NCBI GenBank assembly: GCA_023653115.1
Contig: JAMNXO010000001.1
Coordinates: 1 to 64,000 of the forward strand
DNA from: Erythrobacter sp.
GTDB taxonomy: Bacteria; Pseudomonadota; Alphaproteobacteria; Sphingomonadales; Sphingomonadaceae
Length of the DNA: 64,000 nt
Reading direction: 5' to 3'
Part shown: one piece after another, positions 55,471 to 64,000 of the stretch
Numbering within the stretch: the first letter of the stretch is position 1
Layout: every line of letters begins with the position of its first letter
The notes under the pieces: model-generated
Seen by the model: only the letters and a program-made list of their open reading frames with translations
What the model was told of the DNA's origin: nothing
Database searches by the model: none
Made by a program: the position numbers and the translations under genes

Positions 55471-56162
55471 TGCGGATTTGCCGTGTCCGACACGATCACC
55501 CCGTCGGCCATCGTCAGCACCCGTTCGCAGCGCGCCGCAAGGCTGGCATCGTGGGTGATGATCAGCAGCGTCGCGCCGGTTTCCGCGCGGCGGGCCAGCA
55601 GCAGGTTGATGATCTCCTCGCCAGTCGCCGCGTCGAGATTGCCGGTGGGTTCATCAGCGAAGATCAGCTCTGGGCGCGGCGCGGTGGCGCGCGCGATGGC
55701 AACGCGCTGCTGCTCGCCGCCCGAAAGCTGGGTGGGGTAATGCCCGGTGCGGTGGCCTAGGCCGACCGCCTCCAGTTCCGCCAGCGCGCGCGGCGCGGCA
55801 TCGCTGGCACCGGCAAGCTCCATCGGGGTGGCGACATTCTCGGCCGCGGTCATCGTGGGGAGCAGGTGGAAGGCCTGCAGCACGATCCCGATCCGCCCGC
55901 GGCGCGCGGCGGCAAGGCCATCCTCGTCGAGCGCCGTGAAATCCGCGCCCGCCACGGTCAGGCTCCCGCCGCTCGCACGTTCGAGGCCGGACAGCACCGC
56001 CATCAGCGAACTTTTGCCCGAGCCCGAGGGGCCGAGCAGCGCGACCACCTGACCATGGGCAATATCAAGGTCGATACCCCGCAGGATCGTGACCGGGGCA
56101 GCATTGCTGCCAAGGCTGAGGGTGAGGTTGCGGGCGGAGATTGCAAGAGAGGGACTTGTCAC
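55467..56162 (-). CDS. ABC transporter ATPase, YbbA-like
   Basis: The 231-aa ATPase has Walker A GPSGSGKSS (about 44-52), signature LSGGEQQRVAIARA (about 140), Walker B LIFADEPTGNLD and the switch histidine in LLIITHDASLAARC. It is of the LolD/MacB type that energises FtsX-like permeases. It is the first gene of the exporter pair and is divergent, with a 59-nt gap, from the TesA-like esterase gene, an arrangement conserved with E. coli tesA-ybbA. Confidence 0.92.
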   Translation of the reverse strand: MTSPSLAISARNLTLSLGSNAAPVTILRGIDLDIAHGQVVALLGPSGSGKSSLMAVLSGLERASGGSLTVAGADFTALDEDGLAAARRGRIGIVLQAFHLLPTMTAAENVATPMELAGASDAAPRALAELEAVGLGHRTGHYPTQLSGGEQQRVAIARATAPRPELIFADEPTGNLDAATGEEIINLLLARRAETGATLLIITHDASLAARCERVLTMADGVIVSDTANPQ

Positions 56163-62505: not shown

Positions 62506-62682
62506 GTTTCGATCCCTCCTGATCGCGCCGGAGCCGGAGCGGGCGCAGCGCACAGACTTTCTGTATTGTGGATATAGCACACCTCCCTTCCGGTTCAAGC
62601 AGTGGAAGGGACAAGGCACCCGACTTGGCAGCGTCATCGGGCAGTGCCAGAAGGAAGCGGCAAGCAGCGCAAGGGGATCATC

Positions 62683-63105
62683 ATGCTGTCGGATTTCAAG
62701 GCTTTCATCGCCAAGGGTAACGTCATCGATCTTGCTGTCGGGGTGATTATCGGCGCCGCGTTCGGCGCGATCGTCAAGTCGCTGACCGACGAGATCATCA
62801 TGCCGATCATCGGCGCGATCTTTGGCAGCATCGATTTCTCGGATCGCTACCTCGTGCTCTCGGGCGAGGTCGCTCCCGGCACGCCGCTTGCCGCTGCGCG
62901 CGAGGCCGGGGCCAATGTGCTTGGGCTGGGCGCCTTTGTATCGGTGGTGATCAACTTCCTGATCCTCGCCTTCATCATCTTCCTGATGGTGCGCTATGTG
63001 AACAAGGTCACCGCGCAGCTGGCAAAGCCCGAAGAACCGGCAGCGCCCGCCGGTCCGACCGAGCTGGAGCTGCTCGCCGAGATCCGCGATTCGCTGAAGA
63101 AGTAG
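62683..63105 (+). CDS. mscL: Large-conductance mechanosensitive channel
   Basis: The 140-aa protein starts at ATG 62683 (AAGGGGATCATC before it). MscL has two transmembrane helices: [19 protein letters not shown] (about 13-31) and [20 protein letters not shown] (about 85-104), with a periplasmic loop between and a cytoplasmic C-terminal helix bundle ([15 protein letters not shown]). It opens under membrane tension during hypo-osmotic shock. It is alone, upstream of ssrA. Confidence 0.96.
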
Positions 63106-63136
63106 CGGGAGCCCCGCTCACTTTACATTCAGGATT

Positions 63137-63475
63137 GCCGCGCTATCTGGGTCGTGTCGGGCAACCGACTATGGCGATAAATTGCTGCGTGTAATAGATG
63201 CAACGGACCCGGGGGCAGTACCCGGCGGCTCCACCAGAAGCGGCGGCCCTTAACCGGGTGCCGCAACTCCTGATGGGGCCGAACCAGGATCGACGTGTGT
63301 TGAAAGGCGTAGTTTTTGCCCGGGCTGAGTAACCCGCATAAGGCTCAAAAACCATAAGTGCCAACGATAACGAAGCACTCGCAATCGCTGCGTAATTGAT
63401 GGGCTAACGCCCTTCTTTTATTAGGCTAAAAAGCGCGGTTGGACCGACCGGGCAACAGAACGGATACCGGGGGCT
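63137..63475 (+). ncRNA. ssrA: Permuted two-piece tmRNA (alphaproteobacterial type)
   Basis: The acceptor piece comes first. It has a T-arm CCGGG-GGCAGTA-CCCGG (63209-63225), the acceptor strand CGGCTCC (63226-63232), A, and CCA encoded at 63234-63236. The coding piece starts at 63275 with GGGGCCGAACCAGGATCGACG, whose first seven bases pair with the acceptor strand (one G-U). The tag frame GCC AAC GAT ... GCG TAA (63360-63395) encodes ANDNEALAIAA. A P5-like hairpin GGGC-TAAC-GCCC follows at 63401-63412. The 5' end (hairpin near 63141-63176) and 3' end are approximate. tmRNA frees stalled ribosomes and tags the broken product for degradation. Confidence 0.93.
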
Positions 63476-63767
63476 CGGGGCGGGCCTAGCAACAGAACCG
63501 CCCCACCTTCACGCTCGGGCGCACGGCCCTTGCCGTTCCGATGCAGGATCTCTCCCGATCGCTTGAACAGGTGCCGCGCGTTGACGCTGCGGCACGTTTT
63601 AGCGTTCCTGAAGTTTCAAGACATATGCAGCGCGTGCAACTGCCGCCTGCCGAATAGTTTCGAAGTGAACAGCAAATTTCCTTAACGCCAAAAAAAGTGT
63701 TGGAGTGCGCGGCAACTTGAGTTCAAAGGCGGATTGGGTCGCCCTAGGACGAATTTTGGAACACGTG
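63476..63767. other. Intergenic region between ssrA and the lasso-like gene
   Basis: A GGGGCGG/CCGCCCC hairpin (63477-63504) may end the tmRNA transcript. The word CAACAGAAC occurs twice, at 63463-63471 and 63490-63498. Further on the sequence turns AT-rich (AAATTTCCTTAACGCCAAAAAAAG, around 63675-63700), as expected for a promoter in this GC-rich genome. I see no gene here. An in-frame GTG at 63705 could extend the next gene but lacks support. Confidence 0.45.
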
Positions 63768-63923
63768 ATGACTTCTTCGAAATCAGATGATCGCTGCGCA
63801 CGTCGGGCTTACGCCGCGCCGCAGCTCACCACCTACGGACTGTTCCGTGAACTGACCGCTTCGGGAAGCGGCACTTTGACGGAAAACAATGCAGGTGGCG
63901 GCCAGCCGACCCGTCGTCCCTAA
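63768..63923 (+). CDS. Lasso-peptide-like precursor (51 aa)
   Basis: ATG 63768 has GGA at 63758-63760, 7 nt upstream. The product starts MTSSKSDDRCARRAYAAPQL and carries the leader motif Y15-x2-P18-x-L20-x3-G24-x5-T30, which B-type lasso maturation proteins recognise through their RRE domain. With Thr30 at position -2 of the leader, the core would be residues 32-51: Ser1 start, Glu8 as ring acceptor (Glu39), an eight-residue macrolactam ring, then a Gly/Asn-rich loop and a PTRRP tail. Maturation genes would lie beyond the right edge. The leader match is firm; a true lasso core is inferred. Confidence 0.72.
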   Translation: MTSSKSDDRCARRAYAAPQLTTYGLFRELTASGSGTLTENNAGGGQPTRRP

Positions 63924-63946
63924 TCAGCGCTTCTGCCTGATGGATC

Positions 63947-64000
63947 GTGGCTGAGCGAGGGGCTGCTAGTGGCAGCCTTGAGTTCGGCCACTTCCTTTTC
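63947..64000 (+). CDS. Possible start of a downstream gene, cut by window edge
   Basis: From GTG 63947 the frame stays open to the end and reads MAERGAASGSLEFGHFLF (initiator GTG as Met). It begins 23 nt after the lasso-like precursor gene, where a cyclase or leader-binding/protease gene would be expected. The Shine-Dalgarno (TGATGGATC) is weak and 18 residues cannot identify a family. Confidence 0.3.
   Translation, partial: MAERGAASGSLEFGHFLF

Follow-up and report, generated by a model that had tools for sequence, protein, structure and literature searches.

A solitary lasso-type precursor gene between ssrA and the ast operon of an Erythrobacter genome

The open reading frame at 63768-63923 of the window, by which the whole 64,000-nucleotide stretch of Erythrobacter DNA analysed here is meant, is a genuine, intact lasso-type precursor gene. 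It lies by itself between ssrA and the ast operon, no lasso cluster having been found beside it or in the assembly, and is probably cryptic in its host, a reading given a probability of about 60%. It appears to be a lone representative of a known precursor family rather than part of a new biosynthetic cluster. The host genome (G000) is a draft of 2.40 Mb in 65 contigs, 86% complete, and the window is C27:1-64000.

Results and Discussion

The precursor gene and its sequence

The features of the window discussed in the text are as follows.

62602-63105, plus strand: mscL, on the upstream side (frame from the ORF list, whose real start may be more internal); Pfam PF01741, 145.9 bits
63141-63486, plus strand: ssrA, permuted tmRNA, upstream marker of the site; ARAGORN, tag ANDNEALAIAA; Rfam RF01849, 218.9 bits at 63118-63469
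63513-63982, no strand: segment of about 470 bp carrying the precursor, no inner blastn match in 81 other ssrA-ast gaps; gap comparison and GC
63768-63923, plus strand: orphan lasso-type precursor gene, 51 aa; translation, 44.3 bits with a profile of cluster relatives, alignment of 12
63983-64000, no strand: start of the insert-to-astB DNA common to 76 of the 81 other gaps, continuing past the window; blastn of gaps

Translation of 63768-63923 (+) gives MTSSKSDDRCARRAYAAPQLTTYGLFRELTASGSGTLTENNAGGGQPTRRP followed by a stop, with a leader of residues 1-31 (Y15, P18, L20, G24 and T30, the last at position -2) and a core of 20 residues, 32-51, SGSGTLTENNAGGGQPTRRP, in which Ser1 and Glu8 are given by core numbering. 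This bears out the preliminary description, which had read a complete leader Y-x2-P-x-L-x3-G-x5-T and a 20-residue core with Ser1, Glu8, the loop NNAGGGQP and the tail TRRP. Only one of the window's 1404 six-frame segments of at least 20 residues contains the leader motif, here with Thr at -2, and an acidic residue at core position 7-9 is present as Glu8. The calculated monoisotopic mass is 1937.93 for the cyclised core, one water less than the 1955.94 of the linear core.

A profile built from nine cluster-linked precursors, with the window protein and two other ssrA-linked orphans excluded, matched the window frame at 44.3 bits (E 8e-13); the runner-up segment in the window reached 6.8 bits, and the best score in five first-order Markov copies of the window was 10.3 bits. 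Together with the family alignment, this match supports the identity as a lasso-type precursor that had been proposed. There are features that a chance open reading frame would share: the gene is short, the protein scores 16.3 bits with the NCBIfam lasso leader model NF033521 (lasso_leader_L3), 2.7 bits below the cut-off of 19, and a simple consensus scan of L007 480-1350 found no sigma-70-like promoter. A chance frame is nevertheless hardly credible against 44 bits from a profile that excludes the gene, where the Markov copies gave at most 10.3, and against two positional counterparts in the genomes G024 and G028. NF033521 is matched by 11 of 12 relatives at E ≤ 1, and no Pfam family was found for the window precursor protein.

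Search for maturation enzymes

The preliminary description had expected maturation genes just to the right of the precursor, a flank that is readable because the contig extends to 598,541 bases. That expectation was not borne out: tblastn with ten proteins taken from a related lasso cluster gave no match in the next 26 kb (L007 and L008). Within the window the same ten proteins matched only an ABC transporter at 56087, with 32% identity, so that no RRE/B1 protein, B2 protease or Asn-synthetase-like cyclase was found beside the precursor by tblastn in the window and the next 26 kb. To the left of the precursor lie ssrA (tmRNA), mscL, lemA and TPM-domain genes, and to the right astB, astA, an M20 peptidase gene and ksgA-, pdxA- and surA-like genes. 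Pfam families were assigned to six of the ten ORFs scanned in the right flank, leaving four without a family; beyond about 16 kb the ORFs were covered by tblastn with the cluster proteins only, bar one ORF without a family. A lasso cluster to the right of the precursor is rejected on the flank genes and tblastn together.

The search of the whole 2.40 Mb assembly (86% complete) gave zero matches to PF13471 (B2), zero matches to PqqD at E ≤ 0.1 and no lasso cyclase. The four Asn_synthase matches of the host are the XrtA/PEP-CTERM amidotransferase, which is the sole full-length one, QueC, MnmA and ArgG. The match at C27:489863 was considered as a lasso cyclase and rejected because it is a TIGR03108 protein, with 946.8 bits for that model (cut-off 816.9) and 270 for the lasso cyclase model NF033535 (cut-off 525). 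The true cyclase of the cluster in G072 also falls under the NF033535 cut-off of 525, at 486, and reaches only 197 with TIGR03108. The gene, which was to be a probable new RiPP had the maturation genes been next to it, is a real finding but not a new RiPP cluster, its enzymes having been found neither nearby nor in the assembly. With no cyclase or RRE gene found downstream, the fallback offered at the time fits better: one of many leader-only homologues.

In established lasso biology, a PqqD-like B1 protein binds the lasso leader, B2 cleaves it after the residue next to Thr(-2), and the lasso cyclase links the N-terminal amine to an acid side chain (PMC10368454, PMC8498205). By this route we infer that the window leader would be bound by the PqqD-like RRE of some lasso system and cut off after Ala(-1) by a B2 protease, and that a cyclase would then link the amine of Ser1 to Glu8; maturation would require a host equipped with a cluster. 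The precursor is probably cryptic in its present host because no docking, cutting or cyclising enzyme was found in the genome.

The enzymes may be missing from the assembly because the genome is an 86% complete draft, and a lasso cluster in the unassembled part might then mature the precursor in trans in this organism. Consistent with this, a PF13471 match occurs in 61 of 100 genomes of the genus, and G024 has an ssrA-linked orphan in addition to a full cluster (C45) and enzyme genes at C23:475-492 kb. Three separate markers (B2, PqqD and lasso cyclase) are, however, not found in 2.40 Mb, and G028, which is about 100% complete, is also without found enzymes, and we consider maturation in trans in this organism rather unlikely.

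The ssrA-ast site and its other orphans

The precursor gene fills the gap between ssrA and astB, which in the window genome measures 813 bp and consists of 26 bases of tmRNA tail, about 470 bp of unmatched DNA and then DNA common to other genomes. The GC content of the unmatched segment is 57.6% vs 65.5% for the window, and equally low values occur in 13 of 636 window pieces of that size. Thirteen other gaps look like empty sites, because the common DNA begins within 160 bases of the end of ssrA. The gap, from 63487 to astB in the window genome, ranges from 382 to 3297 bp in 82 genomes. DNA related to it also occurs in L152, L155, L128 and L133.

A tmRNA was detected in 92 of 100 sampled genomes of the genus, and 90 of these ssrA loci were analysed, with G016 and G040 omitted for matches at contig ends; seven of the 90 were ended by contig ends or were under 3.9 kb. 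AstB lies to the right of ssrA in 83 of the 90, and the precursor is present in three (G000, G024 and G028; E no higher than 6e-19, against 2.3 for the following match), by a profile that contains the three orphans themselves. The precursor was found in none of 80 named ast loci of other species, 45 of them with a tmRNA in reach (best E 1.6).

The two other orphans, at C23:105301 in G024 and C6:718097 in G028, belong to two other species of the genus and likewise lie between ssrA and astB, with the same leader, Glu8 and RRP end as the window gene. The G024 orphan has Ser1 and is separated from ssrA by a GNAT gene, whereas the G028 orphan has Ala1 and a unique segment longer than that of the window. 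The three share 41-50% identity with each other or with the query. Mutated leader residues in close strains, which the preliminary description had named as evidence against it, were not what was seen in these other species, since the residues are kept in both. No remnants of cluster genes were seen by tblastn around any of the three.

The G028 genome, about 100% complete, has no PF13471 match and three Asn_synthase matches (TIGR03108, QueC and MnmA); therefore, an orphan without enzymes does occur. A PqqD match in G028 (16.6 bits, cut-off 23.4) was rejected as an RRE, there being no related cluster gene in the surrounding 3 kb. G024, on the other hand, has its full cluster at C45, and C23:475-492 kb holds further genes for a cyclase, PqqD and a B2-like protein, so maturation in trans is possible in that genome. 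Among the results listed by literature searches there was no ssrA-linked or stand-alone lasso precursor, and the recurrent, syntenic orphan-precursor site is mildly new here.

Cluster-linked relatives and core variation

Six of 114 genomes of the genus, host included, match at E ≤ 1e-5, and a family-wide search with alignment A2 found matches in eight of 397 genomes at E ≤ 1e-4, again host included. Precursors within complete clusters occur in G072 (two), G079 (two), G112 (three), G084, G083, G081, G007, G025, G096 and G024 (C45), and for the closest of these relatives the distance to a Transglut_core3 gene is 2.5-3.6 kb. The G072 cluster encodes a nucleotidyltransferase, an ABC exporter, a cyclase, two precursors, an HprK-like kinase, a PRMT/PrmA-like methyltransferase, PqqD, B2 and Wzy_C, and nine clusters, the G072 query cluster counted, share this gene set in a tblastn comparison that excluded G083.

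An alignment of 12 rows has invariant Y, P, L, G, F, T and A in the leader and Gly2 and Glu8 in the core. The cluster-linked precursors of the genus share these residues with the window gene, and many an RRP or RRA tail, but they carry Ala1 or Gly1 and sit inside complete clusters, where the window gene has Ser1 and is alone. Glu8 is found in 17 of 17 precursors compared. The window core is thus one of an Erythrobacter-group family with the pattern Ala/Gly/Ser1-G-S/T...Glu8 and a tail that is mostly RRP or RRA; the other members of this family lie in complete clusters.

Ser1 had been described as unusual, which stands only against Gly1, as the 14 cluster precursors are split between Ala1 (8) and Gly1 (6); Ser occurs in two of the three orphans. 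The title of the report on caulonodins IV-VII, by Zimmermann in 2014, announces unprecedented N-terminal residues, so a core without Gly1 is not new. The first residues of these caulonodins reportedly include Ser1 and Ala1, and they are said to be made from complete clusters. With such non-Gly first residues, and with Ala1 and Gly1 varying among the cluster relatives, Ser1/Glu8 is a minor variant. The proteobacterial precursors of the BsfA type, with split B1/B2, resemble the window gene in the YxxPxL leader, Thr at -2 and acidic core residue 8 (PMC10368454). BsfA itself has Gly1 and Asp8 (PMC10368454), against Ser1 and Glu8 in the window core, and unlike those systems the window gene is not accompanied by B1, B2, C, kinase or exporter genes, nor were such genes found elsewhere in its genome.

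Several further arrangements were observed among the relatives. A PRMT/PrmA-like methyltransferase accompanies cores mostly ending in RRP/RRA in G072:C139 (L070) and eight similar clusters, and methylation of the tail arginines in G072-type clusters is a thought that may be entertained as a putative modification. A Wzy_C O-antigen-ligase gene is always present in the same nine clusters. On the minus strand of G096:C35:15001-32000 (L077), a lasso cyclase and a precursor lie in one 714-residue open frame with no stop between them, possibly because the two are fused, or because they overlap and the second has an internal start. The cluster at G086:C1:337001-354000 (L079) has relatives of the nucleotidyltransferase, ABC, cyclase, kinase, methyltransferase, PqqD and Wzy_C genes, and no B2 match there by tblastn or PF13471. 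GSVRNLTGGS-type precursors lie beside a cyclase-like gene in G050 (L076) and G009 (L082), with no Transglut_core3 match within the 18 kb examined, and the ten cluster proteins found no match in the stretches examined around the GSVRQLTGGS-type precursor-like genes at G029:C1:173187 (L073) and G038:C1:96917 (L083). G038 has no PF13471 match at all.

Origin and persistence of the orphans

In an AstB tree of 77 genomes the three orphan hosts fall in one clade of 38 genomes (SH-aLRT 98) and are not sisters; the orphan label needs three changes on this tree, in which many inner branches of the 38-genome clade are weak. In the precursor tree G000 and G024 group at 89/89, while all three orphans form one group in 13% of 200 bootstrap trees, with p 0.44 in the one-clade test. 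On the precursor tree a single origin of the three is neither shown nor rejected; their history may have been a single ancient gain followed by many losses, several gains, or exchange via the common flanks. Most likely the precursor came into, or was kept at, the ssrA-ast site as a small precursor-only segment.

The protein has no match in phage and plasmid collections or viral contigs, and a phage or plasmid origin is rejected on that basis. A direct scan of genome_contigs with the window protein found no relative. No regulatory motif common to the orphans emerged from a short-word comparison of nine upstream regions, which had only short words in common, apart from a 14-base word shared by G024 and G084 and a match between the cyclase ends of two clusters.

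The gene could also be a relic, left from or copied out of a cluster and now without selection. The low frequency of the precursor (3/90 ssrA loci) agrees with this, as do hosts that are not sisters and the three changes on the AstB tree, which fit scattered gain or frequent loss. We regard a relic as unlikely, however, as none of the three orphans has lost the leader residues or Glu8, despite 41-50% identity, and no cluster-gene remnant is seen around any of them.

Intact orphans at one chromosomal site, in genomes without found enzymes (G000 and G028), would also fit a peptide that functions without being cyclised into a lasso, for instance in linear form or as a decoy competing for the RRE of other clusters. 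This is very unlikely, given that Glu8 and Gly2, which by analogy would be important to ring closure, are kept as expected for cyclisation. It is also quite unlikely that the precursor is maintained at the ssrA-ast site in several enzyme-less species, either for a role of its own in unmodified form or as a substrate common to enzymes that are gained and lost over time. If this were true, the leader-core pair would amount to an independent genetic unit, moving or persisting separately from the maturation genes. An intact, lone and probably cryptic precursor remains the preferred reading.

Implications

A textbook lasso leader and core at the edge of a window need not mean that a cluster adjoins, and as a natural-product lead the window gene is weak until a producer with the enzymes is found. 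Three species of one genus carry intact precursors at one site, and in two of the three no enzymes were found; if these orphans are expressed, they would offer a test of precursor function before cyclisation against maturation by distant clusters.
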